From Pseudomonas fragi (GTDB taxonomy: Bacteria; Pseudomonadota; Gammaproteobacteria; Pseudomonadales; Pseudomonadaceae), in NCBI RefSeq assembly GCF_025426255.1, contig NZ_CP104861.1, forward strand, positions 2,728,001 to 2,792,000: a DNA stretch of 64,000 nucleotides, given 5' to 3'. The position numbers and the translations under genes are program-made. Positions 1,450 through 18,087 of the stretch are shown in pieces. The notes under the pieces are model-generated. The model was given only the letters and a program-made list of their open reading frames with translations, did not search any database and was not told where the DNA came from. Numbering within the stretch: position 1 is the first letter of the stretch; every line of letters starts with the position of its first letter.

Positions 1450-2142
1450 TCACTCCTCGCCCCGCTCGACCAAATGATCGTGCATCGCCTTCTCCGCGCC
1501 TGAAGGATCGTTGGCCTTAATAAAGCCCAGAATCACTTCGTGCTCCTTGACGGTCATCTCCCGACCCTTGAAGCGCAGCATGTCTTCCCGGTAATCGGCC
1601 ATCCACTCGAGGATGGCGCGTGAGATGGCAACATAGATTGGATTACCGGAAATGCGCGCAATCTCGCTGTGGAACTCCATGTCGGCCGGGATGAACTCAT
1701 CGGTTTTGAGACCTTTGCGCATTTTCTCCAGCACCACTTCCAGCCTTGCCACGTCTGCGGTTGTGGCCTTCTGTGCGGCAATCTTGACCAGGCCGGTCTC
1801 GAAGAACGTGCGGGCCTGGCGCAGGTGGTCGACATTCTTCGCAGAACTGGACAGCAGATGACGTGCAGCCAGATCGATCTGGCCGATCATGGAATTCATG
1901 TCCACCTGTCCGACCTTGGCCCGCTCACCGTGCTGGATAGTGATCATGCCCATGCCCGCCAGACGCTGCATAGCTTCGCGAACAACGGGTCGCCCCACAC
2001 CAAAGGTTTCCATTAATTCGCGCTCGGCAGGCATCTGGTCGCCGGGTTGAAGGCCCTCTTCCTCAATGAGGTCGATCAGTTGCTCAAAGACAATGTCAGA
2101 AAGCTTCTTACGTTGAATCAGGCGTTTCTTGATCTCTGACAT
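1450..2142 (-). CDS. GntR/FadR-family regulator of the apiose cluster
   Basis: A 230-residue FadR-type regulator. The N-terminal winged helix lies at about residues 15-75, including the recognition segment ELMETFGVGRPVVREAM, and is followed by an FCD ligand domain (about 90-225) with the DMEFHSEIARISGNP signature. Its closest look is to NanR-like members that sense sugar acids or phosphates. It is the last gene of a leftward unit after the two lactonase genes (51 bp gap), so it probably controls the surrounding D-apiose genes and responds to an intermediate. It most likely acts as a repressor. The effector is inference only. Confidence 0.85.
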   Translation of the reverse strand: MSEIKKRLIQRKKLSDIVFEQLIDLIEEEGLQPGDQMPAERELMETFGVGRPVVREAMQRLAGMGMITIQHGERAKVGQVDMNSMIGQIDLAARHLLSSSAKNVDHLRQARTFFETGLVKIAAQKATTADVARLEVVLEKMRKGLKTDEFIPADMEFHSEIARISGNPIYVAISRAILEWMADYREDMLRFKGREMTVKEHEVILGFIKANDPSGAEKAMHDHLVERGEE

Positions 2143-2193: not shown

Positions 2194-3387
2194 TTATAAT
2201 GCCGGCTCAACAGTCAAGCGGCAGTCGATGACCGCCACCGCCCAAGCCTTGAGCGTAGGCACCGGCGATTCCCGCGCGGGTTGCATGAACTGCGGGTCTG
2301 ACAACGCCGTAACATAACTATCCTGATCCAGCACCGTGCAACCTGTCACCTCTGCACCGATTATCTCGAAGGTTTGCAATTCGCAACTGAGATTGCCCAA
2401 CCACAGTCTGACGTTTTCACCGCCATCCTCGGACCATCCTAGCGCAACGATGTCCGGCGATGACGTTTCGAATACCAATGCCGATCTCCCGCGCGCCAGC
2501 GACAAGCCTTTGATCACATGAAAAACCGGCCAATAGTGTTGCGCCGACGCCACGCTGAAGGGTTCATTTACCGCCCACAAAGCGATCGCGTCAACGCCGC
2601 TGCATTGGGCCGCGTGGTAGTGCGCCAGTGTCCAGACGGCTGCAAGCAACCCCCGTTGACGCGGGTCCTGATCACTGAGGGTCAGTCTCTCGCGCTGGGG
2701 GTTCGGCGTGAGTTGCCCACCATAGGGGTTGCGCCATGCGCCGACAGCGCTAGTGGTGAGGCGATAAGGTTTGCCGTCAGCCAGTGCTCTTCCAGAACGA
2801 AACACATCTGGCAAGGCTTGCAGCGACTCGACGATAGACGCGTCGTCGGCCGCATGCACAATCGGCGACGTGGCGTGTGTCAAGTAATCGAAGCTGCCTG
2901 GGGTGGGTCGGCATCGATTGAGTTCGGTGAAAAACGTGGGCACTCCTGCACCGATCATCACCTGCGGCACATATTCGCGAGCCAGTTGCGCGACCTCTAC
3001 AGGCGTCATACCGCAAGGCCATATGCCGTCGGGCTGATAGCTTTCCAAATACGCGGCGGGTGTAACCAATACTCCGCGTATAACAAACCGCTCATTGATT
3101 AGCCCCGCCAATTGTCGAAGCTGAGCGTGAGGTTGCGCGTCATCAACCACCACCAGAAGCCAAATGTCGGTTTCGCTGCTTGCACACACGCGCAGCGCCT
3201 GCTCCAGTCGATCGAACGCACCGTCGTTGCGCAGGTCCACCAGCAACTCCAGGTGTGCGCTCTGCAACCAATCAATGATTTCCAAAGCTTCGGCGCCGTC
3301 ATTTAAACGATCCACCCAAAGCCCTTGGCCCAAAGCTGGAAACCCAAGCAACGCTGGCCCGGCGTATTGGATGCTTACTGTGTTCAT
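2194..3387 (-). CDS. apnL: D-apionolactone lactonase ApnL, TIM-barrel and C-terminal part (split gene)
   Basis: A 397-residue protein with no signal peptide and the look of a (beta/alpha)8 barrel followed by a beta domain; acidic segments FFTELNRCRP and WAVNEPF resemble strand ends of glycosidase-like barrels. D-apionate lactonase (ApnL) of the D-apiose pathway is, from memory, a single chain of about 630 residues with an N-terminal beta domain, a TIM barrel and a C-terminal domain. This gene would be the last two parts. It starts at an ATG that overlaps the stop of the preceding gene by 4 nt (ATGA), which argues for translational coupling. Function rests on context and domain order; I could not align it. 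Confidence 0.6.
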   Translation of the reverse strand: MNTVSIQYAGPALLGFPALGQGLWVDRLNDGAEALEIIDWLQSAHLELLVDLRNDGAFDRLEQALRVCASSETDIWLLVVVDDAQPHAQLRQLAGLINERFVIRGVLVTPAAYLESYQPDGIWPCGMTPVEVAQLAREYVPQVMIGAGVPTFFTELNRCRPTPGSFDYLTHATSPIVHAADDASIVESLQALPDVFRSGRALADGKPYRLTTSAVGAWRNPYGGQLTPNPQRERLTLSDQDPRQRGLLAAVWTLAHYHAAQCSGVDAIALWAVNEPFSVASAQHYWPVFHVIKGLSLARGRSALVFETSSPDIVALGWSEDGGENVRLWLGNLSCELQTFEIIGAEVTGCTVLDQDSYVTALSDPQFMQPARESPVPTLKAWAVAVIDCRLTVEPAL

Positions 3388-4112
3388 GAATGCACCTGCG
3401 CTTGCCCGATCAACTTCACACTGATGCACTGCTCCACCGTTTCCCCCGCGTCCAGGATATAAGGGCAAGGCCATGCCAGCGGGCGGTTGTAGGTTTTGAA
3501 TGAAGCATCGGACCAGTTGCGCTGATCTTCCATTTCGAACACATCACCACTAAAGCTCCATTCAAGGCTCAAGCCCGGCATTGGCGAGTGAACCAGACGC
3601 TTGATGTCGAAGAAAGGTTGGATCGGGGCTATCAGATCGGGAAACGCACCCTGCTGGGTCTGCCCGTCACTGTGGGTCACATGGACCGGCATCGCCACCG
3701 CGCCCTTGAGCGGATGCAATACCATCAAACCCGCCCTGCAAGTGGTGAACGCGCTGCGAGCCTGCAGCCGCACACTGACTGACACTTCTCGTTCGGCCAC
3801 GCGCATGTCCAGCGACCAGTCCAGCACAGGCTCTTGGCCTTCAGGGGTCACCACCCCCTCGCTCACTTGTCGCCAGAGCCGGTCATCTGCCTGGATCTCA
3901 CATGAGTGCTGCTGCAGTGAGTAAGTCCCCCAAAATTCATCGCGGATTACCAGTCCAACACTGCGCAAGACCTCGAAGCCACTGACCCGAAGCGTGCGTA
4001 GCTGCTGCCCTTCCACGCGAAACGCCAGTGACCCGACGGTCACCGATAACGCAGCAGTAACAGCCTGATCGGTCCCATAAAGGCGCTGGGGAAGGGAGAT
4101 TTCTGCCGTCAT
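3384..4112 (-). CDS. apnL: ApnL-like N-terminal beta-domain protein (first half of split lactonase)
   Basis: A 242-residue beta-rich protein beginning MTAEISLPQRLYG, without signal peptide or membrane segment. It ends with RPLAWPCPYILDAGE and a short tail, a type of sequence expected where the N-terminal beta domain of ApnL passes into the barrel. The following gene overlaps it by 4 nt and together they make about 640 residues, close to the single-chain enzyme as I remember it. I infer that the two polypeptides form one lactonase, opening D-apionolactone to D-apionate. A GGAG lies about 9 nt before the ATG at 4112; the reading frame stays open further upstream but has no better start. Confidence 0.58.
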   Translation of the reverse strand: MTAEISLPQRLYGTDQAVTAALSVTVGSLAFRVEGQQLRTLRVSGFEVLRSVGLVIRDEFWGTYSLQQHSCEIQADDRLWRQVSEGVVTPEGQEPVLDWSLDMRVAEREVSVSVRLQARSAFTTCRAGLMVLHPLKGAVAMPVHVTHSDGQTQQGAFPDLIAPIQPFFDIKRLVHSPMPGLSLEWSFSGDVFEMEDQRNWSDASFKTYNRPLAWPCPYILDAGETVEQCISVKLIGQAQVHS

Positions 4113-4283: not shown

Positions 4284-5033
4284 ATGAGCTTAGTGTCGTC
4301 TGGAAAAAGTCAGCCCCTTTCTTCGCGCGGCCAGCCAGCCCTCTTTCTTACAGGAGGAATCTGTGCCGTCCTACTTGGGTTATCGGCGCTCAACGGTCCG
4401 TTGATAAGCATCCGTAAACTCGACCCGGTGACGGGCAAGGTCGCTCTGAACAACGTTCGCGCGGCCAACGCCGAGGGACAGAACCAGACATTCGCCCTCT
4501 CCAGCTTCGACGCCAACCAGTTTGTCACTCAACAATGGGCGGGAGATGTCGAAACGGTCGTGGCTGAACGTACCGTTGACCTCACCCAATTGCTTACCGC
4601 CATCAACCAGAACCCCGCCCAGGCGGCCTTGGACTACTCGGTGCCCCACGACGGTCAGGCAAAGAACTTTATCGTCAGCGCCCGCGCCAAGGTCAGTGAA
4701 GTCAACGTCAAGTCTCCCATGGGACTTCTGGAGCTGGAACTGCCCGCCGGGTCGGTGCCTGCATCCGTAAAAATCCAGCTACTCGCAGGACCTCTGGTCA
4801 TCAGCACCACGCTACGCGATGTGGCAACCAACATGTCTCTGAACAACTTCACCAATCAGACCCAGTACGCCGATGTGGCCGCCGCCCTGAACCGAAAAGC
4901 GTTGGCTCAGGCTTACGCCGCTGCGCCGGCAGCGGAACTGAAAGGCAAGACCATCGAGTTCACTGGGGTGTTTAACCTGCAATCACCCGCCACCATCCGA
5001 ATTCTGCCAATCAGCCTGACGGTGGAGGAGTAA
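4284..5033 (+). CDS. DUF2291 family protein of the sugar ABC operon
   Basis: A 249-residue protein with one hydrophobic segment near residues 20-40 (PALFLTGGICAVLLGLSAL) that would anchor it in the inner membrane with the rest in the periplasm. I recognise it as DUF2291, a family that often travels with ribose-type ABC importers and has no established function to my knowledge. It is the first gene of the rightward transport unit, with GAGGAGA about 6 nt before the ATG, and the ATPase gene follows after 3 nt. A role in substrate delivery or in assembly of the importer is inference. Confidence 0.75.
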   Translation: MSLVSSGKSQPLSSRGQPALFLTGGICAVLLGLSALNGPLISIRKLDPVTGKVALNNVRAANAEGQNQTFALSSFDANQFVTQQWAGDVETVVAERTVDLTQLLTAINQNPAQAALDYSVPHDGQAKNFIVSARAKVSEVNVKSPMGLLELELPAGSVPASVKIQLLAGPLVISTTLRDVATNMSLNNFTNQTQYADVAAALNRKALAQAYAAAPAAELKGKTIEFTGVFNLQSPATIRILPISLTVEE

Positions 5034-5036
5034 GGC

Positions 5037-6641
5037 ATGACCAACGATCTGCAAGCGGCTGGGCCACTCCCCCCTGCCCGCGCACCGTTGTCAATGCGGG
5101 CGCGCAATATCAGCAAGGTGTACCAGGGCACTACGGCCCTCAAGGGCGTGGACTTCGATGTGGTGCACGCCAGCGTCAATGTCCTGATCGGCGAAAACGG
5201 CGCAGGCAAATCGACGCTGATGAAGATTCTTGCGGGTATCGAGCAGCCCACCTCCGGCCAGCTGTTCAGCGGCGACGACGAGCTGACCCTAAGCACCCCC
5301 CGGCAAGCCATGGCTTTGGGCATTGGCATCGTCCATCAGGAGCTGAACCTGTGCCCAAACCTCAGCGTTGCCGAGAATATGTTCATCGGCAAGGAACTGC
5401 GCGGCCGCTTCGGCAACGTACGCCACCACCAACAGCGCGAACTGGCCCGCACCACGCTGTTGCGAATGGGCCAGGAGATCGATGTCGACACACTGGTACA
5501 GGACCTGAGTATCGGTAAACGGCAAATTGTCGAAATCGCCAAAGTGCTGGTCAGTGACGTACGCGTGCTGATCCTTGATGAGCCCACCTCTTCATTGAGC
5601 GAAGCGGAAGTGGAAATCCTCTTTTTGCTGATCGCTGAATTGAAGCAGCAAGGGGTGTCGATCATATACATCTCGCATCGGCTTGAAGAGCTGATCGAAA
5701 TCGGCGACTACTTCACCGTTCTGCGTGACGGCAACCTGGTCGGCACCGGCCTTAAAGGCACCGTGACAGTGGGCTGGCTGGTGGAACAGATGATTGGCCA
5801 GCAGATGACCACTGAGCTGCGCGCCGGTGCCGAACCCTCTGTGCACGAAAACGCACCGCAGGCGCTCAGGGTCGTCGACCTCGACGTGGCCAGCGAGCGC
5901 GGTTCGCTGTTGCTGAACAAAGTCTCTTTTAGCGTCAAGCGCGGAGAAATAGTGGCTTTCTATGGGCTGATGGGTGCCGGCCGAACCGAGTTGTTCGAGA
6001 CACTCATTGGCCTACGTAAAGCCATTGGCGGCGAAATACACATCAACGGACAGCAAGTACCCTTGCGTCAGGACATCGCCGCACGTATCCAGGCCGGGAT
6101 CGCCCTGGTGCCCGAAGACCGGCAAAAGCTTGGGCTAGTTACCGGGGCATCGGTTCGCGACAACTTGCTGCTGCCTAACCTCAACCGTTACCAGCGTCTG
6201 TATGGCCTCGCGACACCCGCCATGGACGCCGACGTATCACGAATCATCCGCGAGCTGCATATCAAGACTGAACATGCAGGCGTCGCCATCTCGTCACTGT
6301 CCGGTGGTAACCAGCAAAAAGTCGTGGTGGGCAAAAACCTGCTGACGGATCCGCACATATTGCTCCTGGATGAGCCGACTCGCGGCATCGACATCAAGGC
6401 CCGACGCGAATTATTCGAGGTGCTCGATCGCCTCGCCCGCAATGGACTGACCATTTTGTACGCCTCCAGTGATCTCAAGGAAATTCTCGGCGGTGCCGAT
6501 CGGGTGCTGGTGATGTGTCAGGGCCGGATTACCGCCAATCTGCCGCGCCAGCAACTGTCCGAGGCCAGCCTGGTGGCTTGCTCGCAAGTCATTCGCAAAG
6601 ACCCGCACGGGGCCACGCACCTTCACAAGGAACACGCATGA
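5037..6641 (+). CDS. Sugar ABC importer ATPase (RbsA type), probable D-apiose importer
   Basis: A 534-residue double ATPase of the ribose/xylose class. The first half has Walker A GENGAGKST (residues 52-60), a signature LSIGKRQ and Walker B LILDEPTSS. The second half has LSGGNQQK and LLLDEPTRGID but, as usual for RbsA-like proteins, a degenerate second Walker A (GLMGAGRTEL). It drives uptake through the permease encoded next. The gene lies 3 nt after the DUF2291 gene and overlaps the permease start by 4 nt. Substrate D-apiose is inferred from the catabolic genes around it; the transporter class itself is certain. Confidence 0.9.
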   Translation: MTNDLQAAGPLPPARAPLSMRARNISKVYQGTTALKGVDFDVVHASVNVLIGENGAGKSTLMKILAGIEQPTSGQLFSGDDELTLSTPRQAMALGIGIVHQELNLCPNLSVAENMFIGKELRGRFGNVRHHQQRELARTTLLRMGQEIDVDTLVQDLSIGKRQIVEIAKVLVSDVRVLILDEPTSSLSEAEVEILFLLIAELKQQGVSIIYISHRLEELIEIGDYFTVLRDGNLVGTGLKGTVTVGWLVEQMIGQQMTTELRAGAEPSVHENAPQALRVVDLDVASERGSLLLNKVSFSVKRGEIVAFYGLMGAGRTELFETLIGLRKAIGGEIHINGQQVPLRQDIAARIQAGIALVPEDRQKLGLVTGASVRDNLLLPNLNRYQRLYGLATPAMDADVSRIIRELHIKTEHAGVAISSLSGGNQQKVVVGKNLLTDPHILLLDEPTRGIDIKARRELFEVLDRLARNGLTILYASSDLKEILGGADRVLVMCQGRITANLPRQQLSEASLVACSQVIRKDPHGATHLHKEHA

Positions 6642-7741
6642 TGGCTGAATCAATGTCATTGCCCGCCCGCAAGACCCCGTCCATAAACGCACGCAGCTTG
6701 CCGCTATTGCTGTTGAAAATGCGGGCCTATCTCGCCCTGATGCTGCTGGTCATTCTCTTTTCCAGCATCGCGCCTTCATTTCTCTCGGCACGCAACCTCG
6801 TCATTGTCGCGGAACAAGTCGCGGTGTTCGCGATTCTCGGAATCGGCATGACCTTCGTGATTCTGGCTGCGGGGATAGACCTGTCAGTGGGTGCCATCGC
6901 AGGCCTAGCCGCCATGATTGCCGGCTACCTGATTGCCGAAGGCCTGCAGTTGCCCTGGCTGGGAGTCTCGGTGTTTGGCAGCATCCCGGTAATCTGCATG
7001 GTGACATTGGCCGTGGGGACTTTGGTCGGAGCCATTAACGGCTGGTTTATCACGCGCCTCAAGGTTACCCCGTTCATCATGACGCTGGGCATGCTGTACA
7101 TGGCTCGCGGCGCAGCTCAACTGGTATCCGGAGGCGCAACTTATGGTGATCTGGGCGGGCAAGCCGAACTCAACAACACAGGTTTTCTGCTGCTGGGAAC
7201 CGCACGCATACTCTCGGTCCCGGTGTCCATCTGGCTGATGATCATCCTGACGCTGGTGGCAGTCTATATCTGCCGCAAGACAGTGTTCGGCCGTCAGGTG
7301 TACGCCATTGGCGGCAATGAGCGCGCAGCCGAGCTGTCGGGCGTTCGTGTCAATCGGGTGAAGCTGGGGACCTACGCTATTTCCGGATTCTGTGCTGCCT
7401 TGGCCGGGCTGATCATCGCCTCACGCTTGGGGGCCGCCAACCCGGCAATTGCGACGTCTTACGAACTGAATGCTATCGCCGTGGTGGTGCTTGGCGGAGC
7501 GTCGTTGTTCGGTGGTGTGGGCACCATCGGCGGCACCATTATTGGCGCCTTTGTGCTTGGGGTTCTGAGCAACGGCATGGTGCTGGTGGGTATTTCCGAT
7601 TTCTGGCAAACGGTGATCACCGGTGCGGTCATCGTGCTGGCGGTAGTGGTTGACCAATTGCAGCGGCGCGTCGAGAAATCCAGCGCCGAACGCGAGGCCA
7701 AGGCCCAGGAAACACAGGGTTCAACAGTCTCTAATGCTTGA
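6638..7741 (+). CDS. Sugar ABC importer permease (RbsC type)
   Basis: A 367-residue integral membrane protein with about eight to ten hydrophobic segments and the BPD_transp_2 signatures of RbsC-like permeases: AAGIDLSVGAIAGLAAM, TLGMLYMARG, VYAIGGNERAAELSGVRV and VVVLGGASLFGG. It forms the membrane channel of the importer in the inner membrane. The start is the ATG at 6638, overlapping the ATPase stop as ATGA; a second ATG follows at 6641 and cannot be excluded. Translational coupling with the ATPase is likely. D-apiose as substrate is inferred from neighbours. Confidence 0.9.
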   Translation: MMAESMSLPARKTPSINARSLPLLLLKMRAYLALMLLVILFSSIAPSFLSARNLVIVAEQVAVFAILGIGMTFVILAAGIDLSVGAIAGLAAMIAGYLIAEGLQLPWLGVSVFGSIPVICMVTLAVGTLVGAINGWFITRLKVTPFIMTLGMLYMARGAAQLVSGGATYGDLGGQAELNNTGFLLLGTARILSVPVSIWLMIILTLVAVYICRKTVFGRQVYAIGGNERAAELSGVRVNRVKLGTYAISGFCAALAGLIIASRLGAANPAIATSYELNAIAVVVLGGASLFGGVGTIGGTIIGAFVLGVLSNGMVLVGISDFWQTVITGAVIVLAVVVDQLQRRVEKSSAEREAKAQETQGSTVSNA

Positions 7742-7763
7742 TTTTCAAGGGATGGCAACAACA

Positions 7764-8729
7764 ATGAAAAAGAGCTTCTCTGAGCATCTGTTCTCGCTGG
7801 CCGCACTGTCGGCGGCCCTCTATGCAACCAGTGCCATGGCGGTTGAATTCAAACCTTCCGATCATTTGATCGTGATTATCACGCCGTCGCACAGCAACGC
7901 CTTTTACAAGGCCGAGTCCGACACCGCACAAGCCGCAGCCAAGAAGCTCGGTTACCGCACCAACGCACTGGTGCATCAGGACGACCCTGACATTCAATTA
8001 CGCCTGGTACAGACCGCGATCGGTGATAACGCCAGCGCCATCATCCTCGACAATGCCGGCTCGGATTCGTCCATCGCTGCGGTGAAACGGGCTAAAGAAG
8101 CAGGAATACCTACCTTTCTGATCGACCGCGAAGTCAACGCCAATGGCATCGCAACGGCACAAATCGTCTCCAACAACTCTCAGTGTGCAACCTCCGTGGC
8201 TGAGTTTTTCGCCGAGCAGGTCGGTTTTAAAGGCGAGTACGTCGAATTGACCGGGCGCACCTCCGACGTCAACGCCCACGTGCGCTCCGAAGGTTTTCAT
8301 CGGGTGCTGGACCAGATTCCCGATATGAAGATGGTCGCGCAACAATCGGCCAACTGGGACCAGACCCAGGGCTATAACGTGATGCAGTCGATCATTCAGG
8401 CCAACCCGAACATTGTGGGAGTACTTGCTGGCAACGACACCATGGCCCTTGGCGCAGCCGCAGCCTTGAAAAACGCGGGCAACAACAAGGTGATTGTGGT
8501 CGGTATCGACGGCAACCCCGACGTGGTGCGGCAGATTGCAGGCGCAGGTCCGATCGCCGCCACCGGCTTGCAGCAAGCAACAAAAATGGCAGCAATGGCC
8601 ATGGAGCAGGCCGACCAATATCTACGGACCGGGAAAACCGACAAACCGGAAAAACAATCCGTAGATTGTGTGCTGGTGTCCAAGGACAACAGCCATCAGG
8701 TACGCGAGGGTGGTTTCGGTATGCAGTAA
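7764..8729 (+). CDS. Periplasmic sugar-binding protein of the ABC importer (RbsB type)
   Basis: A 321-residue periplasmic binding protein of the Peripla_BP_4 class. The start at 7764 gives a standard signal peptide (MKKSFSEHLF then a hydrophobic core, cleavage after ATSAMA near residue 26); upstream ATGs at 7734 and 7752 would spoil it. AAGGG lies about 12 nt upstream. Ribose-binding-type landmarks are TPSHSNAFYKAESD, ILDNAGSDSSIAAVKRAKEAGIPTF, LAGNDTMALGA and GIDGNPDVV. It catches the sugar in the periplasm and hands it to the permease. It is the third transport gene and lies 22 nt after the permease stop. D-apiose as ligand is inferred. Confidence 0.9.
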   Translation: MKKSFSEHLFSLAALSAALYATSAMAVEFKPSDHLIVIITPSHSNAFYKAESDTAQAAAKKLGYRTNALVHQDDPDIQLRLVQTAIGDNASAIILDNAGSDSSIAAVKRAKEAGIPTFLIDREVNANGIATAQIVSNNSQCATSVAEFFAEQVGFKGEYVELTGRTSDVNAHVRSEGFHRVLDQIPDMKMVAQQSANWDQTQGYNVMQSIIQANPNIVGVLAGNDTMALGAAAALKNAGNNKVIVVGIDGNPDVVRQIAGAGPIAATGLQQATKMAAMAMEQADQYLRTGKTDKPEKQSVDCVLVSKDNSHQVREGGFGMQ

Positions 8730-8750
8730 CGTCTGTCGCCGATGTGAATA

Positions 8751-8777
8751 CGCCGTGAGGTTTACCCGCCCACGGCG
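8751..8777. terminator. Hairpin between convergent genes
   Basis: CGCCGTG (8751-8757) pairs with CACGGCG (8771-8777) across a 13-nt loop, in the 57-bp gap between the binding-protein stop and the dehydrogenase stop. There is no clear T run on either strand, so this is only a plausible shared terminator. Confidence 0.35.
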
Positions 8778-8786
8778 CTCACGGCG

Positions 8787-9830
8787 TCATTTCCAGCGTC
8801 GGGGTTTGACGGTGGTGCCGGTTTCAGCTGATTGGTAAGCCGCCTCGACCAGCGCCTGAGTATTGTAATTGTCCGTACCGCTGGTCTCGCATGCCGTGCC
8901 TGCGCGTTGATGGTCCAGCCATTGGTTCTGCAGACTCAATACACTCTGCTGAATAGCCGACCATGGCGCCTCGCTCCAGGCCGGTACCTGCGGGGACACG
9001 TCAACCTCCCTCAGCCCCCCCTGCATGTCATGCACCTGCAATCGAAAATCGGCCAGCAACCGTAACGATCCAGCATCCCCATCGATCTCCAGCAAGGTTT
9101 GTGGAAACGGGTCCTTGTGCAACCGGGTGGCGTAGCTGAAATCCACCACGCTGGTAACCCCCGAATCATGGGCCAGCATCACCGTGGCGACATCTTCGCC
9201 AAGGATTGCCGGGTTCACCCGCCGGGTTTCACACGTCAAGCGACTGACATCGCCAAATAATGCCCGGGCCACATCGAGCACGTGCACGCCCAAGTCATCG
9301 ATGATAAAACGCGGGGTCTTGGCCAGGTAGGGCTGTAAACGATACACATCGAAGCCGCTGCGAAAACTGACACGTCCGAAAAAGGGCGTGCCGATGCTGC
9401 CCGTGCGCAGCTGTTCGATGGTCGCCCGGATGGCGGCTTGCCAGCGAAAATTTTCATGCACGGTCAAACTCACCCCACGCTCTGCACAGGCATCAATCAT
9501 TAGTCGGGCGTCCTCCAGAGTCGCCGCAAAGGGCTTCTGACAGATCACCTGAAGCCCGGCCTGCGCCGCCATCAACACCAGCGGTTTATGGGCTACAGTG
9601 GGCGTGGCAATGTCAACGAAATCAAGTTGCAGTTCATCGAGCATTATTTGCGCGTCAGTGAACAGCGCTGCATCTGGCTGATACTCGGCAAAAGCGGTCA
9701 GCCGCCGGGGATCGCTGTCACACAGCGCGACGATCGCAACGCCCTGCTGCGCCTGCCAAGCACGCAGTTGATTGAGGGCAAAAAAACCACAGCCAATCAA
9801 AGCCCCGCGCAATGGTGTGCAGTCCTGCAT
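8787..9830 (-). CDS. apsD: D-apiose dehydrogenase (Gfo/Idh/MocA family)
   Basis: A 347-residue Gfo/Idh/MocA oxidoreductase. The N-terminal Rossmann motif is GALIGCGFFALNQLRAW; the usual EKP signature appears as QKPFAATLEDA, and DDLGVHVLDVARALFG follows in the catalytic domain. In the D-apiose pathway ApsD oxidises D-apiose at C1 to D-apionolactone with NAD+. The assignment comes from the company of every later enzyme of that route. The ATG at 9830 was chosen for the GAGG shortly before it and the immediate Rossmann strand; a longer frame to 9968 would overlap the upstream gene. It lies 88 bp downstream of the apnO stop and is probably the last gene of the long leftward operon. Confidence 0.78.
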   Translation of the reverse strand: MQDCTPLRGALIGCGFFALNQLRAWQAQQGVAIVALCDSDPRRLTAFAEYQPDAALFTDAQIMLDELQLDFVDIATPTVAHKPLVLMAAQAGLQVICQKPFAATLEDARLMIDACAERGVSLTVHENFRWQAAIRATIEQLRTGSIGTPFFGRVSFRSGFDVYRLQPYLAKTPRFIIDDLGVHVLDVARALFGDVSRLTCETRRVNPAILGEDVATVMLAHDSGVTSVVDFSYATRLHKDPFPQTLLEIDGDAGSLRLLADFRLQVHDMQGGLREVDVSPQVPAWSEAPWSAIQQSVLSLQNQWLDHQRAGTACETSGTDNYNTQALVEAAYQSAETGTTVKPRRWK

Positions 9831-9918
9831 AGATACCTCTGTTGATATCGGACCGGTCAAAAAAAACGCCCGGGGTATTAACCGCCGAGCGCTGAACGTC
9901 GCTGAGTATGCGCTTGAA

Positions 9919-10788
9919 TCAGGCAGCGTCGGCTTTACGCACCGCATCGATCTTGAGCATGCGGGCAATGATCAGGTCCAGCTCCTTCTCATCGAAAATT
10001 TTCTTCCAATCCGGTTTTATGATTTGCTCACGACCATAGTCGATAGCAATCAGGCAAGCATCGGAGAACGGGTTGGTACTGCGGAATGCCACTGCCAGGG
10101 CAATCTGGATATGACCGTAAAGCATCGCCTTGGCTGCCGCTTCAGGCACACCGATGCGGTTGATGGTTTCATCCAGCGCTTCTTTCATGAAGCTGCCGAC
10201 CATGCAGGCCACGGTTTCCACCAACGTCGGTTCCAGATAGGCCAGTTGTTTGACAGTGACCCAGTGCACCTCCCCCACCGGGCCGTACATCACGCCAATG
10301 ATCTCGGCCAGTTCTGAACGCTGCTTGTCGTTACCGCTCTCAAAAGCGGCGCAAACATCTTGAATAGCTGCGTTGCCACCGAAAGCATCGGCGTACTCTT
10401 CCTTGGTGGTTCGCTCAAGAAACACAGACGGGTGACAGGGGTGAGCGACTGCCTGGTGAATGCCGTCACGCTGCGCCAGCAGCCCGGCGTAAGAGGCAGC
10501 AGGATCGAGGGTCAGCAGAATCGCACCGTTTTTCATCTGCGGCACTACAAGCCCGGAGACAGTTTCCAGTGCCACGTCGGGCACCGCAAGAATCACCACA
10601 TCGGCGTGAGCCACCACCTCATCGGTGACCGCCAGCTCACGACCGGCGGCGATGATTTGTTCACGCGCCCGGGGCGAGTTTTCGCAGTACGCCACGTTGT
10701 AACGGCTGTGCTGCAGGTTGTTGGAAATGCGCATGCCCATCTTCCCGCCGGCGCCCACAATGGCAATTTTTTTCAGTTCGTATGTCAT
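9919..10788 (-). CDS. apnO: D-apionate oxidoisomerase (phosphogluconate dehydrogenase-like)
   Basis: A 289-residue dehydrogenase with an N-terminal Rossmann fold (KIAIVGAGGKMGMRIS, residues 7-22) and an all-helical C-terminal domain of the phosphogluconate-dehydrogenase type (VKQLAYLEPTLVETVACMVG onwards). ApnO enzymes convert D-apionate to 3-oxo-isoapionate by coupled oxidation and isomerisation. The family and the flanking genes (decarboxylase upstream, apiose dehydrogenase downstream) support this. It lies 3 nt after the decarboxylase gene, so co-translation is likely. A general 6-phosphogluconate dehydrogenase role is unlikely at this length. Confidence 0.78.
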   Translation of the reverse strand: MTYELKKIAIVGAGGKMGMRISNNLQHSRYNVAYCENSPRAREQIIAAGRELAVTDEVVAHADVVILAVPDVALETVSGLVVPQMKNGAILLTLDPAASYAGLLAQRDGIHQAVAHPCHPSVFLERTTKEEYADAFGGNAAIQDVCAAFESGNDKQRSELAEIIGVMYGPVGEVHWVTVKQLAYLEPTLVETVACMVGSFMKEALDETINRIGVPEAAAKAMLYGHIQIALAVAFRSTNPFSDACLIAIDYGREQIIKPDWKKIFDEKELDLIIARMLKIDAVRKADAA

Positions 10789-10791
10789 GGG

Positions 10792-11598
10792 TTATTCCTC
10801 GCTTTGCTTGGCATTCAGGTAGTTCAGGTTGTGTCGCGTCCATTGGTCTTCCATGGCGCAGGTAGACGCCGCGTCGAGTTGCCAGGGAAGCCAGTGTTCG
10901 ATGATCTGGTTGATGTGCTTGTGGTCGGGCTGGACCTTGCCGCGCATGTAGTCGTAATCCAGCAGGCCTTCGCCCATCGGGCAGCCAGCAAAGGTGAACC
11001 CCACCCAACCGTCGCGTCGGGAAAAGCTGAAGTCCTTGACGTGCAGGTTCAGCACACGGCTGGCGGTCATGTCGATCACATCCTTGGGATGCTCGAGCGC
11101 TGCAACACAGTTGCCAGGGTCCAGACAGATGCCTAACCAAGGGCTGTCGATACGTTCGATCGCCTGCATAATCCTGCTGGTCGGCACCTGCTCATAAGTC
11201 TCCAATGCCAGCTTGACGTCCTGCTCGACAAAGCTCGGCATCACCGTTTCCAACAGCCAGACGGCCTCGTCAAGGGTGGGTTGGTGCGTGTTGCTGTTGA
11301 ACATGCTTCGCAGGAGGCGCACATCAAGAGTTCGGGCGATATCCAGATATTTCCGTAAGTGCGCGGTTTCCAGCCCGCGCGTACCCAGTTCGAGAATAAG
11401 GCCCAGGTCATCTGCTTGGTGTTTGAGCTCAAGCAAGGCCCGCGGCGAGAGCGCTTCGAGACCTTTGTAATCACAGATCTGGAACACCCCCGCGCCCAGC
11501 TCTGCGGTCTGCTGCAGCATCATCGGCAGATCCAGGGGGCGTGGCACACGCTCGGATGCACGCCAGAAAAACGAGTAGGTACTCAAGCCGATTGCCAT
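10792..11598 (-). CDS. oiaC: 3-oxo-isoapionate decarboxylase (sugar phosphate isomerase/epimerase fold)
   Basis: A 268-residue AP-endonuclease-2-type TIM barrel. The four expected metal ligands are visible in order: Glu in LALETYEQV, Asp in ICLDPGNCV, His in LNLHVKDF and Glu in CPMGEGLLDY. OiaC in the D-apiose route decarboxylates 3-oxo-isoapionate to L-erythrulose and CO2. The alternative branch (kinase plus transcarboxylase/hydrolase or RuBisCO-like enzyme) is not present, so the decarboxylative branch is used. A strong AAGGAGGAGGG precedes the ATG. The start overlaps the end of the upstream isomerase gene by 16 nt. A simple epimerase is the alternative call if the pathway were wrong. Confidence 0.76.
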   Translation of the reverse strand: MAIGLSTYSFFWRASERVPRPLDLPMMLQQTAELGAGVFQICDYKGLEALSPRALLELKHQADDLGLILELGTRGLETAHLRKYLDIARTLDVRLLRSMFNSNTHQPTLDEAVWLLETVMPSFVEQDVKLALETYEQVPTSRIMQAIERIDSPWLGICLDPGNCVAALEHPKDVIDMTASRVLNLHVKDFSFSRRDGWVGFTFAGCPMGEGLLDYDYMRGKVQPDHKHINQIIEHWLPWQLDAASTCAMEDQWTRHNLNYLNAKQSEE

Positions 11599-12395
11599 AC
11601 GTTGCCCTCCTCCTTGGCGATGACTGTGTCAGCGCACTGTCGCGCCGCTTCTTCGAGAATCGATGCGAAGTTCAGCGGGTCATGGGCAAAGCGGCCAAGG
11701 AACAACCCATCAACCTTACCGCCAAGTGCGGTCAGCAAGCCGGGCCCGGCGCTGCCGCCATAGATAACCCGGGTTCCGGCAAGCCCGTTCTCGGCGACCC
11801 GCTTGCCGAGAGCTGCGCAAACCTCGCCGATGTAGGCCAAAGAAGCTGGCTGGCTGGCACCGATGGCCCACTGTGGTTCATACGCCAGAATCAAATCCCC
11901 TTGCAGCCCGGCATCCACCGCACTGGCCAATGAAGCCTCGAGCTGCTCCAGGCACACTTCAACGGCCTCTTCGACGCGTCCGTGGTGCTCCTCCCCAAGA
12001 CACAACATCGGAGTCAAACCGTTACGCCAGGCTGCGGCCGTCTTGTCGGCAATGCTCCGGGGTGTTTCAGCGAAATAGCGCCGGCGCTCGGCATGCCCGA
12101 TTTCCACCAGGCTACAACCCATTTCCTTGAGCACTGCCGGGCTGACTTCGCCGGTATAGGCCCCCTCGTCCTCCCAAAATACGTCTTGTGCGCCGACCTT
12201 GGCGATGCCGTGGAAAATCTCCAGCGCCGGCGCCAGCATCGGAAAACTGGGGATCACCAACACTTCAATCGCGCCACTGCGCACCTGAGGATGCTGTTTG
12301 ATCTGCTCGGCCACCGCCGCACACCATTGCAGCGTTCGCTGGTAGCCGAAATACATCTTCAGGCTGACCCCGAGTGTTACCGCCGGGCGATTCAT
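11583..12395 (-). CDS. lerI: L-erythrulose-1-phosphate isomerase (triose-phosphate isomerase-like)
   Basis: A 270-residue TIM-family isomerase. The catalytic framework is present: Lys in VSLKMYFG (replacing the NWK of true TPI), His in [10 protein letters not shown], Glu in [10 protein letters not shown], and the phosphate-binding YGGSA. LerI turns L-erythrulose 1-phosphate into D-erythrulose 4-phosphate. The variant lysine motif and the place between an RpiB and a DhaKL gene separate it from the housekeeping tpiA. It overlaps the upstream rpiB-like gene by 4 nt and the decarboxylase gene by 16 nt. Confidence 0.8.
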
Positions 12396-12862
12396 CGCGC
12401 ACTGACCCGTTCATAGTCATTCAGGGTCTGGACCTTGAGCGCGGATGCCGAGCTTTCGTCAAAGCGATAGGTCAGCCACTCCTTAAGCAGGCGACGTGCC
12501 AGTTCCAGGCCTATCACCCGTTGACCGAATGTCAGGACCTGAGCGTTGTTGCTGAGGATCGCGCGCTCCACCGAGAAACTGTCGTGAGCGGTTACCGCAC
12601 GAATGCCTGGGACTTTGTTGGCGGCGATCGCCACCCCCAGACCAGTACCACAAATCAGCAATGCTCGGTCGGCCTGCCCTGCCGCGACTTTTTCGGCTGC
12701 CGCTATTGCTATCAGGGGATAAGCCGTATGGCTCTGGCTGTCTACGCCAATATCGTCGACCGACGCTACGGCCGGGTTCGCCATCAGATCGCGCTTGAGG
12801 GCTTCCTTGTATTCGTAACCGGCGTCATCGCAACCAATTACAATGCGTAATTTTTCACCCAT
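12392..12862 (-). CDS. derI: D-erythrulose-4-phosphate isomerase (RpiB/LacAB family)
   Basis: A 156-residue RpiB-type isomerase. Motifs are [15 protein letters not shown] at the N-terminus and [21 protein letters not shown], whose Cys is the usual catalytic base. In this pathway DerI makes D-erythrose 4-phosphate, which enters the pentose phosphate and aromatic routes. The ATG at 12862 has GAGGAGA about 7 nt before it and lies inside the last codons of the kinase gene (8 nt overlap). A ribose-5-phosphate isomerase B is the generic alternative; the operon argues for the erythrulose substrate. Confidence 0.8.
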
Positions 12863-14618
12863 GGACTGTCTCCTCGGCAAGGTTTGGCGCTCGAAGGCCG
12901 ACGCGTAGCAACGGCTCGATCGCATTGATAATCAGGGAAAGGGAAACCGCACCTGCGTCGGGTGTGCCGAGGCTTTTCTCGGCGAGCGGCCGTGCACGGC
13001 CAATGCGCGGCCGTAATTGAGCGGTGTCGGCAGCGGCTCTTTGCGCGACTTTGGCGGCGATGCCCCAGGCCTCTCCGAGCTCCAGTGCAGACTGCGCTGA
13101 TTCGCACAGCGACTGGCTGAATGGAACCAGCACATCGACCATGGTCTTGTCGCCCACCTGTGCCTTGCCAAAATGCATTATCCCCTGGCTAGCCCGACGA
13201 ACCCCTTCGGCAACCAGCGCGGTATCGGGATCCAGGTGATCCCCAAGAGTGGTGCCCAATGCCGTCAATGCCACCCCCCAGAGGGCACCGGATGTGCCCC
13301 CCGCCTGGTCAGCCCAGGCATCGGCGGCTAAACGCAGCAAGGTGCCTGCTCCACACTTGAGTGCCTGTACCTCGCGCGCCCTGGCAACGGCGGCCATCAC
13401 CCCGCGCTGCATGCCAATCCCGTGGTCACCGTCACCCGCAATGGCATCGATCCGTCCCAGTTCATCGGCATGCTGCAGCACGGTGCGCTCGGCCATTTCC
13501 AGCGCCTGCAACACGCACTGCGCGGACCGTCTGGACTTGACGCTGGCTGCCGGAATGACCACCTGTTCGATTACTTGAAACGCCAACTCGCCCAAGGTTT
13601 CAGCCAACACCACTGCGCCTTTTCGATACGCCGGGGTCGATACCGGAGCGCACCAGAATCGCTCGAGTTCCTCGTCCAGCCAGCACAGCGTCAGTGAGAC
13701 ACCGGCCATGTCAAAGCTGGTCACCAGCTCACCGACTTCTGGCTCGACCACACGCAGGCCGGCCTCACTCAACAATTGAGAGACGCACCGGTACACCACG
13801 AACAGCTCTTCGTATTTCACACTGCCCAAACCGTTGAGGATCACCGCCACGCGCTGGCCATTTACCAAAAAAATATCCTCGGGCAAGTCCTTGAGCAACG
13901 CCGCCACCATCAATTCGGCCAGCTCATCAGCGCTGGGAACCGGACGTTCATCAATGCCCGGCTCGCCATGGATGCCCATGCCCAGAGCCATCTTTCCCGG
14001 TGGCACATCGAACAAAGGGTGTTGCGCCCCCGGCAACGTACAGCCCGCAAATGCCACGCCCAGTGAGCGGGTTCGGGCATTCGCATGCCGCGCTACGCGC
14101 ACCACCTCAGAAAACTCATATCCGCTTTCGGCCGCGGCCGAGGCGGCCTTGAACACCACCAGATCGCCAGCGATACCGCGTCGCTTGTGCAGTTCGTCGC
14201 TGCCGGCGCTGGAAATGTCATCCGTCACGGCTATCACTTCACACTGAATGCCCTCGGCCAGCAGACGGTCCCTGGCCAGACCGAAGTGCAGCACGTCACC
14301 TGCGTAGTTGCCGTAGCCCAGCAACACGCCGCCGCCCTTATGGGCGACACGCGCAACGTTGTAGATCTGCTGCGCGGACGGTGAAGCAAACAAATTGCCC
14401 ATGACCGCCGCATGGGCCAGGCCTTGGCCGACCAAGCCGGCGAAGGCCGGGTAATGACCGGAACCGCCGCCGATTACCACCGCCACGGAGCCCGGCTCAC
14501 TGCGGGTACTACGTACGACGCCACCGGGAACCTGACGAACTTTATCGCCATGCACCGCGACGAAACCTTGCACCAGCTCGCTGGCAAACGCCGAAGGTTT
14601 ATTAAACAAACGAGTCAT
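12855..14618 (-). CDS. lerK: L-erythrulose kinase, DhaK-DhaL fusion
   Basis: A 587-residue fusion of the dihydroxyacetone-kinase substrate domain (DhaK, about residues 1-330, with [24 protein letters not shown] and MGIHGEPGI) and the ATP-binding DhaL domain (about 375-580, with [13 protein letters not shown], whose Asp residues hold Mg-ATP, and [16 protein letters not shown]). The His of IHGEPG lies in the region that binds the ketose covalently in DhaK. LerK phosphorylates L-erythrulose at O1 with ATP. It lies 3 nt after the MFS gene. An ordinary ATP-dependent dihydroxyacetone kinase has the same architecture; the context decides. Confidence 0.82.
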
Positions 14619-15980: not shown

Positions 15981-16136
15981 GTCGTTTCTCCGACTCATCT
16001 ACGGTCATGAAGTGCGTCACGACTGGTGTGATGAGGTGATTTCTTATTATGGTCGCTATAAAGCAGCGATCCGACCTTAGGCCTGGCTCGTGATCAAGCG
16101 ATGGCTTAGGCAAATTTCTAACACGACCCTTTCCAA

Positions 16137-16161
16137 TTGTATACTGTGATGATGGTATGAT
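16137..16161. promoter_or_regulatory. Candidate operator shared with 4206-4226
   Basis: TTGTATACTG with a central GTATAC palindrome (16139-16144), then TGATGATGGTATGAT. The 9-mer TGGTATGAT (16153-16161) and the TGATGA element also occur at 4206-4220 in the other apiose promoter region. The order and spacing differ between the two places, so this is a weak call. Confidence 0.3.
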
Positions 16162-16184
16162 CTCTATGCAAGCTAGAATAAACC

Positions 16185-16201
16185 CTCAGGACTATCCTGA
16201 G
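16185..16201. repeat. Short perfect hairpin
   Basis: CTCAGGA and TCCTGAG flank a CTA loop, a perfect 7-bp stem. No T run follows, so a terminator is unlikely; a protein site or RNA structure is possible. Confidence 0.35.
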
Positions 16202-16417
16202 AGGACCGTGCCAGAGGGGTTAGAAAATCAAACAACTGTTTATTTAAAGTTTAGCGGGGCACGCTCAACCATCCGGATACAGCCTGAAATTGTCACTCCG
16301 GGAGAGCTTTATATAAGTGCCGCGAGGGGGCGAAGACAGAACAGCTGAGGCAACCAGGCTAGTGTCGCGTGACCAATCTCGTGATAAACACCTCGCGTGG
16401 AAGCCAACTCCCGGGGC

Positions 16418-17029
16418 TCAACGCAGGGCCCTGTAAATCTCGGAAACAACCTGCATCGTCGCGTCTTCGATGGTCCCTTCATTACGGCATACAACCCAGC
16501 CGTGATCTGCACTCGCTTGCTCGAACGCCTGGGTACAGGCGACATGTTCTTCCAGCTTATGGATCACCGTACTGCTTAGCCCCCGTCGCCGCGCTGCCGC
16601 CCTCGCCCATGAAAGTTCAGGTGCGGTGACAACCCCGACATGCAGGTCGGGCACTCGCACATTTCGTTCAATGTTCAATTGCAGAATTTCTGCGAACGGG
16701 AGTATCCGGCGAAAAGCGGCATCAGACGGATACCAGCGATCGATCAGGATGATGCTATCGGGGGGTTGTTTAGTCAGCACGTGCCGGGAAATCCAGGCAC
16801 GGCTATCAGCAAAGCGTTCACACACCCTTAACTCTAAATCCCGGGTGGGATTTCTGGCGAATGCGTTAACGAGGGTCATCGTTTCAGCCCTGCCGGGGTC
16901 GCTTTTTTTCTCGCAAAGCCGGATCACTTTTTTGTTATCGGCCCTCAGTGCTTTCGTAACGGCCTCCAACAGTGTGGTTTTGCCGGTTCCTTTGGGCCCA
17001 TCTAGAGAAACAAACAGCGGACGATTCAT
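16418..17029 (-). CDS. Thymidylate-kinase-like P-loop kinase, orphan
   Basis: A 203-residue P-loop protein with Walker A GPKGTGKTTL at residues 11-20 and a SIILIDRWYPSD segment near the middle that matches the DR[YFW] motif of thymidylate/deoxynucleoside kinases, followed by an Arg-rich lid-like WARAAARRRG. It would transfer phosphate from ATP to a nucleotide or related small molecule in the cytoplasm. It is not the housekeeping tmk, which normally sits beside holB. No related genes surround it and its AT-richer flanks suggest acquisition. Such TMPK-like proteins also occur in defence and mobile contexts, but nothing else here supports that. Confidence 0.6.
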   Translation of the reverse strand: MNRPLFVSLDGPKGTGKTTLLEAVTKALRADNKKVIRLCEKKSDPGRAETMTLVNAFARNPTRDLELRVCERFADSRAWISRHVLTKQPPDSIILIDRWYPSDAAFRRILPFAEILQLNIERNVRVPDLHVGVVTAPELSWARAAARRRGLSSTVIHKLEEHVACTQAFEQASADHGWVVCRNEGTIEDATMQVVSEIYRALR

Positions 17030-17166
17030 TCTTCAAATATCGATTGTTTTGCGTTTTTTTGCCCTGTTCGTTTGCTGGAACCGCTTGGTGCGACTACGCG
17101 AATCGAGTGCAAGGTCCTTATGAACAGACATCGGCGAGCACTTTAACCTTAAACCCGCTCTTTCTC

Positions 17167-18087
17167 TCAGCGACGCCCTGCTGGAGTAAGATTAGCCCCC
17201 AGATATTCGATTAAAGCACTGACTTTTGGCAGCGCTTCGCGGCTCTTTAGCCATACCAAATTCATCGGAAGACCTTCCGTGGCCAGATGAGGCAAAACCT
17301 CCACCAGCGCTCCCGTGTTCAAATGCGCTTGCACCAGCCAGGTAGGCAGTTGGGCGATGCCAAGCCCGGCCAATACTGCCATCACCTCTCCTTCACCGTC
17401 CCCCACGGCAATATGGGGGTGCATGATCCTGCGCTCCTTATCACCCTGCTGACGGCCTTTGAAATACCAGGGGATCGCCATCCCGTCGTTCTGCCCATAA
17501 CCCACGCAAAGGTGTGCATCCAGGTCCGACTCCGACTGGGGTTGCCCGTAGCGGAGCAGATAATCGGGTGATGCGCAAAAAACCAGCTTCGGCGTGCCGA
17601 AAAAACGGTGCCCTATAGAGGCAGGCCACGCATCCGAGCCGCCGATCCTGACAACAATATCAATACCTTCGTGGACCGGGTCGACGTAACGATCCGAGAA
17701 CGACACATGCGGTGACAGCCGTGGGTGCAGCTTCATGAAATCCAGAATTAGCGGCAGGACATGAAGCCTTCCATAAGAAGCTGGCAGGTCAATACGCACC
17801 TTGCCCTGAGGTTCGGTCTGGGTCGAGGTCAGCGCTATTTCAACCTCTTCCAGATCCGAAAGCACCGCCGTACACGTACGGTAGAAGGTTTCTCCCGCGT
17901 CGGTCAGTGACAAGCGACGCGTGGTGCGCTGAAACAAACGGGTGCCGAGCCGCCCTTCGAGTCGGGCAATGCTCTTGCTGACGGCAGAGTTGGTCAGGTT
18001 CAGGCGGCCAGCGGCCGCCGTAAAGCTGCCCAGATCGGCAACGATAACAAAAACATCAATACCCTTAAGGCGTTCAGACGAAAACAT
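17167..18087 (-). CDS. LysR-family regulator divergent from an MFS exporter
   Basis: A 306-residue LysR protein: winged helix at about residues 3-62 (SFTAAAGRLNLTNSAVSKSIARLEGRLGTRLFQ) and a type-2 periplasmic-binding effector domain beginning near 90 (GKVRIDLPASYGRLHVLPL). It belongs to the large CrgA-like group of Pseudomonas LysR proteins. The ATG at 18087 has GGAG close upstream. The MFS gene starts 110 bp away on the other strand, the usual arrangement of a LysR regulator and its target, so it probably controls that exporter. The inducer is unknown. Confidence 0.85.
   Translation of the reverse strand: MFSSERLKGIDVFVIVADLGSFTAAAGRLNLTNSAVSKSIARLEGRLGTRLFQRTTRRLSLTDAGETFYRTCTAVLSDLEEVEIALTSTQTEPQGKVRIDLPASYGRLHVLPLILDFMKLHPRLSPHVSFSDRYVDPVHEGIDIVVRIGGSDAWPASIGHRFFGTPKLVFCASPDYLLRYGQPQSESDLDAHLCVGYGQNDGMAIPWYFKGRQQGDKERRIMHPHIAVGDGEGEVMAVLAGLGIAQLPTWLVQAHLNTGALVEVLPHLATEGLPMNLVWLKSREALPKVSALIEYLGANLTPAGRR

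Follow-up and report, generated by a model that had tools for sequence, protein, structure and literature searches.

A divergent ApnL-like lactonase encoded by two overlapping genes in Pseudomonas fragi and other Gammaproteobacteria: a probable gene fission

The lactonase ApnL (NCBIfam model NF049900, D-apionate lactonase; EC 3.1.1.115) is a single polypeptide chain in most of the carriers examined here. A Rhodobacteraceae strain growing on D-apiose is reported to possess a gene cluster with a D-apionolactonase (EC 3.1.1.115), a dehydrogenase and an oxidoisomerase, and the later steps of that cluster, as that source presents them, differ from those of the locus described below (PMC11747546). 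Short gene overlaps are reported to permit termination-reinitiation (PMC6728339, PMC10666635). They are also reported to be enriched for subunits of complexes, which in E. coli account for 249 of 820 closely spaced gene pairs versus 111 of 1,630 distant ones (PMC10666635). No description of a split ApnL was found in the literature searched, outside which the main D-apiose paper lay, and within that literature the two-gene form is an undescribed variant of a known enzyme.

The gene pair and its distribution

The window, meaning the whole stretch of P. fragi DNA analyzed, is 64,000 nucleotides long. Its initial annotation described a D-apionolactone lactonase divided between a 242-residue beta protein and a 397-residue barrel protein with an ATGA overlap, and these proteins and the overlap were recovered from the sequence on the minus strand (Table 1). 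The similarity to ApnL proposed for both products was found as well, since they matched consecutive parts of NF049900. The N protein matched model positions 3 to 232 of 595 (E 1.4e-62, 212.1 bits) and the barrel protein positions 269 to 590 of 595 (E 1e-49, 169.6 bits). When joined in silico (639 aa), they covered positions 4 to 590 in a single match and scored 386.2 bits; the naturally single-chain protein of Salinicola rhizosphaerae scored similarly (395.1 bits). The curated cutoff of the model is 750 bits. It was exceeded by a Sinorhizobium single chain (832.1 bits) and was reached neither by the window pair, joined or apart, nor by the single chains of S. rhizosphaerae and of the gammaproteobacterial genome G599 (495.8 bits). 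Because its score is below the cutoff, as for the latter two single chains, the pair is classed by sequence as a divergent relative of ApnL, an ApnL-like homologue and not a certified member. A drift of substrate is possible, given the joined score under 750 bits. A Pfam search at E 0.001 named neither half, and the barrel protein had one match within the window's own genome.

Table 1. Features of the gene pair and its surroundings in the window
Feature	Position	Strand	Details and basis
GntR/FCD regulator	1450..2142	minus	PF00392, PF07729; next gene downstream of the pair
Barrel subunit gene (putative TIM barrel and C-terminal beta domain of ApnL)	2194..3387	minus	397 aa, ATG at 3387, stop ending at 2194; NF049900 269-590, predicted structure, conserved columns
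ATGA stop/start overlap	3384..3387	minus	common to both genes; sequence
N subunit gene (putative N-terminal beta domain of ApnL)	3384..4112	minus	242 aa, ATG at 4112, TGA ending at 3384; NF049900 3-232, split position, conserved columns
AGGTG, possible Shine-Dalgarno motif (weak)	3393..3397	minus	5 nt upstream of the barrel ATG
DUF2291 protein and sugar ABC transporter genes	4284..8729	plus, divergent	PF10054, ORFs; transporter names from translations
Gfo/Idh/MocA dehydrogenase, candidate D-apiose dehydrogenase	8787..9827	minus	PF01408
ApnO-like dehydrogenase, PGDH_C domain	9919..10788	minus	PF16896, E 1e-59
Xylose-isomerase-like barrel, TIM-, RpiB- and Dak-type genes	10792..14618	minus	PF01261, PF00121, PF02502, PF02733/PF02734

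The pair appears to sit in an apiose gene cluster, judging by the Pfam domains of its neighbors and by the homologues found near other split loci; a cluster of this type is also listed in PMC11747546. The genes would fit a pathway in which D-apiose is oxidized to the lactone and the lactone hydrolyzed to D-apionate, with oxidoisomerization and decarboxylation to L-erythrulose next and then an erythrulose kinase/isomerase route, and the genes at 10792..14618 are taken here as candidates for the lower pathway through erythrulose. The flanks were surveyed in 19 of the 20 distinct split loci (L053 was left out). Homologues of the GntR regulator and of the window's Gfo/Idh/MocA dehydrogenase were present near all 19, both being large families in which a homologue is not a proven ortholog. 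An ApnO-like homologue lay within the fetched stretch of 16 of the 19 loci; at one of the three others, L028, the contig breaks and the gene is on the other contig. Genes of the transporter region also have homologues in other loci.

With duplicates removed, 20 distinct split loci were found in Pseudomonas, Salinisphaera, Halotalea, Kushneria and Salinicola, compared with 21 single-chain places in the same comparison. The genome samples described next overlap one another and were drawn from larger groups. The initial annotation had suggested looking for the same split in related Pseudomonas genomes; the gene was matched in 3 of 398 genomes of the genus sample, and all three were two-part. Both matches were split in the relatives sample (2 of 115 genomes) and in the order sample (2 of 194). 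The class sample gave two matches in 321 genomes, one split (the window's genome) and one single-chain (G599), and the 23 genomes of the family of G599 gave one match, single-chain. Among 398 genomes of the phylum sample, 15 matched: 2 were split (the window's and G1004), 1 had the N-type protein only (G897) and 12 were single-chain. In the family of G1004 (151 genomes), 12 of 13 matches were two-part; one of the 12 lies at a contig break, and in another the barrel gene is broken. The single-chain match, G1199, is the S. rhizosphaerae sequence. The family of G897 yielded matches in 7 of 250 genomes: four with single chains, two with the N-type protein only and one with a decayed copy. A scan of the genome_contigs collection with three aligned Pseudomonas barrels gave 18 loci, the five genera named above among them, of which those of S. 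rhizosphaerae and Bacterium HR40 were single-chain, and the close-relative search of that collection with the window barrel alone as the query gave no match. A tblastn search of a plasmid collection matched 236 records, mostly from rhizobia and all below 60% identity; the four records inspected were all single-chain.

Several observations accompany this survey. Within the genus the pair is rare (3 of 398 sampled genomes), and apiose genes therefore look patchily distributed. Bacterium HR40 (L027) carries two quite different single-chain ApnL-like genes (8059-10005 and 16080-18074), which fall in separate parts of the tree. In an uncultured Kushneria (L026:9001-9798, the same as G1165) the barrel gene is broken within the barrel and the N gene is intact, reflecting either recent decay or an assembly error. 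A second independent split was sought in the family of G897; the ApnL-like gene of G1487 (L093:6534-8317) is interrupted by an internal stop and appears to have decayed, in contrast to the clean split.

Conservation of both halves and the case for one enzyme

In all, 68 columns are conserved in 90% or more of the 25 single chains aligned. At these columns the window pair had no residue missing and 61 identical, 40 of 41 in the N protein and 21 of 27 in the barrel. Of these columns, 43 are likewise invariant across the 19 split rows, N accounting for 27 and the barrel for 16. The conserved N residues include E47, R50, R57, D58, R126, H147, E193, E195, D196, R198, N199, D202, K206 and Y208, and those of the barrel include N157, R158, H178, D182 and R234; barrel E155 is invariant in a 15-row alignment and absent from the 68-column list. 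Since conserved residues are dense in N, this subunit is not a disposable domain. The dN/dS ratio was 0.11 to 0.34 in 12 of the 13 comparisons with usable dS, pointing to purifying selection on both genes in these comparisons. The thirteenth gave 1.57 on a dS of 0.011, two further comparisons had reached saturation, and one for the barrel was left out on account of the broken L026 gene. Distances of the N and barrel proteins were correlated over 18 rows (r 0.93), as expected of linked genes.

The reading favored here, with good though not full confidence, is that one old fission of a single-chain ApnL produced an overlapping gene pair whose products form an obligate two-subunit enzyme with the function of the single chain. 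The ancestral chain would have consisted of an N-terminal beta domain, a TIM barrel and a C-terminal beta domain, and its gene would have been cut once, long ago, at the linker between the N domain and the barrel in one gammaproteobacterial lineage. The halves would have been retained as adjacent overlapping genes, an arrangement that fits translational coupling via termination-reinitiation, and the two proteins would assemble into an obligate complex that does the single chain's job. This predicted complex would hydrolyze the lactone, made from D-apiose by the putative dehydrogenase encoded nearby, to D-apionate, which would then go to the ApnO-like enzyme.

The two products very likely make up a single heteromeric enzyme, as suggested by their pairing, their shared conserved residues, the overlap and the re-fusion described below. 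Against it can be set that only 249 of the 820 closely spaced E. coli pairs in the published count are subunits of a complex (PMC10666635). Both proteins are probably needed for the active site, because 27 of the 43 residues retained in single chains and split forms alike lie in N. The split is conserved and both parts appear to be under selection, as would mark a heteromeric enzyme born by fission. More tentatively, the active site may be built mainly by the N beta subunit, or lie at its edge, and the glycosidase-like barrel may be its obligate partner. With the site so placed, which we regard as doubtful, the halves would have to meet to form one active site, having been cut once and rejoined once.

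It is unlikely that the two proteins are independent, the barrel being the lactonase and N a separate sugar-binding or mutarotase-like enzyme. The single-chain model does match aldose-1-epimerase-like structures, and N-type matches stand alone in G897 (L072:5382-6281) and G1501 (L094, about 6770-7342), no barrel partner having been detected within the stretch fetched. However, the N and barrel genes adjoin each other in all 20 distinct split loci, residues conserved in the single chains are retained in both proteins, and the genes appear to have been re-fused in one lineage.

Age of the split and nature of the junction

Maximum-likelihood trees were calculated from 40 rows and from 45 rows, with no outgroup and with midpoint rooting. 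In both trees the 19 split rows (19 of 19) and the S. rhizosphaerae single chain formed one group (support 100/99 and 100/100), and the nearest neighbor of this group was the G599 single chain (100/99 and 100/97). The next group in the 45-row tree consisted of Bacterium HR40, G995 and G1020, all single-chain; in the 40-row tree the midpoint root places this group on the opposite side. Two changes of state are needed on each tree, and the midpoint rooting of both implies one fission and one re-fusion. The S. rhizosphaerae gene (L024:8215-10221, the same as G1199) encodes a 668-aa single chain within the split group; it comes from one assembly, listed twice, on which the re-fusion rests. In the Salinicola alignment it has no ATGA and the frame reads through; here the genes appear to have been joined again and the ATGA junction rewritten. 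The true gene fission suggested by the initial annotation is thus well supported by the trees as one old event in a lineage of Gammaproteobacteria, kept since, the split rows forming one strongly supported group.

An ancestral state of two genes, with the single chain as a later fusion, is improbable. The trees are unrooted, and this order of events would follow if the root lay on the split group's stem. Against it, single chains occur in many Pseudomonadota families and in the gammaproteobacterium G599 adjoining the split group, the split is seen only within part of the Gammaproteobacteria, and the midpoint root lies outside the split group in both trees.

In the aligned joined chains, the junction fell at the identical column in 16 of the 19 split rows and a few columns off in the other 3, within a poorly conserved linker that separates the N-terminal domain from the barrel. 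The clean, not ragged, junction noted from the window alone was borne out by the shared ATGA and by the same arrangement in 20 distinct loci, which is beyond chance. A 4-nt overlap is present in 14 of these loci; of the others, one has 8 nt, two have 11 nt and three have 14 nt. Other overlaps between lower-pathway genes in the window (16 nt at 11583-11598 and 4 nt at 12392-12395) indicate that they are common in the region. The genes joined by the latter look like separate enzymes. The ATGA overlap alone is weak evidence, because separate-looking enzymes of the region also overlap by 4 nt.

The Shine-Dalgarno signal before the barrel gene counts as weak support. With an 8-nt anti-SD, the mean energy was -6.9 kcal/mol for the 20 barrel starts and -2.35 kcal/mol for 350 out-of-frame ATGs of the same genes (Mann-Whitney p 5e-12, the rows not being independent). 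Shuffles of the same bases averaged -5.0, so that the 20 starts were better only moderately. For the window's own barrel start, 84% of its shuffles were equally strong and the shuffles were stronger on average, and 17% of the control ATGs scored as well. In a run with a 13-nt anti-SD, 11% of the controls matched the window's score and 52% matched that of L002.

Programmed frameshifting at the overlap, by which one fused protein would still be made, is very improbable. The reading frames overlap and a slip could join them, but the frame relation of the two genes is of one kind in the 14 loci with 4 nt and of the other in the 6 loci with 8, 11 or 14 nt. Because the overlap classes differ in this way, a single kind of programmed frameshift could not join the products, and on this ground the mechanism was rejected. 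Several loci also have a barrel-frame stop about 19 nt upstream of the start, leaving little room. A recent frameshift or sequencing error that broke a single-chain apnL in the window strain, named by the initial annotation as the main alternative, has a negligible chance of being correct: such breaks exist in the family (the internal stop of G1487, the broken Kushneria barrel gene), but the idea is refuted by the recurrence of the split at 20 distinct loci across several genera, the split rows being one old tree group with both parts apparently under purifying selection, and no intact relative differing by one indel was found among the relatives with the gene.

Predicted folds and comparison with known systems

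The predicted structure of the S. rhizosphaerae single chain (27 rows) had a pLDDT of 85.0 and a pTM of 0.88, i.e., a defined domain arrangement in the model. That of the window barrel (15 rows), with a pLDDT of 86.1 and a pTM of 0.90, includes the C-terminal beta domain. Loop 223-236 had a pLDDT below 50 in the barrel-only model and the equivalent loop 57 to 69 in the full chain, a hint, no more, that the N domain may order this loop. A PDB sequence search with the barrel gave no relative up to E 1, and one with the N protein gave two unconvincing matches at E 0.3 and no solved relative. The full-length model also matched a putative aldose 1-epimerase in Foldseek, which would fit a beta-supersandwich N domain.

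The locus offers a clean case of an enzyme probably cut by evolution at a domain boundary and once rejoined. Because relatives of both kinds, intact and split, are numerous, hypotheses for gene splitting in terms of stoichiometry, folding or regulation become testable, and the density of invariant residues in the N subunit indicates where to seek the active site. The apiose pathway may be scored incomplete in bacteria with a split ApnL, because the halves fall under the ApnL cutoff and match no Pfam family.

At the head of the Foldseek list for the full-length model stood the beta-arabinopyranosidase 5xfm and the GH97 alpha-galactosidase 5e1q, GH97-type enzymes that likewise combine a beta domain, a TIM barrel and a C-terminal domain; the global superposition was poor (TM about 0.3, rmsd about 19), at about 10% identity. 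The barrel protein shares its fold with GH30 and GH51 enzymes, which top its Foldseek list. The single-chain model shares the fold of the beta-glucuronidase 7psk, which we take to be a GH79 enzyme (Z 24.4, rmsd 3.4, 361 aligned); the VIA-align 2 rows cover mainly residues 259-663 of the model, i.e., without the N domain. Identity to these GH79-, GH30- and GH51-type barrels is about 8 to 15%; likeness of fold is no proof of function, and glycosidase activity is not claimed.

Compared with ApnL, the pair covers the full length of the model, in order, and its gene neighbors fit the pathway; it differs in being two genes where ApnL is one polypeptide chain, and in a joined score of 386 bits against the cutoff of 750. 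With overlapping pairs that encode one complex it shares the ATGA overlap and the adjacent, codirected genes. It differs from them in its apparent origin, since here the pair would have been born by cutting one gene, with the coupling and the complex predicted.
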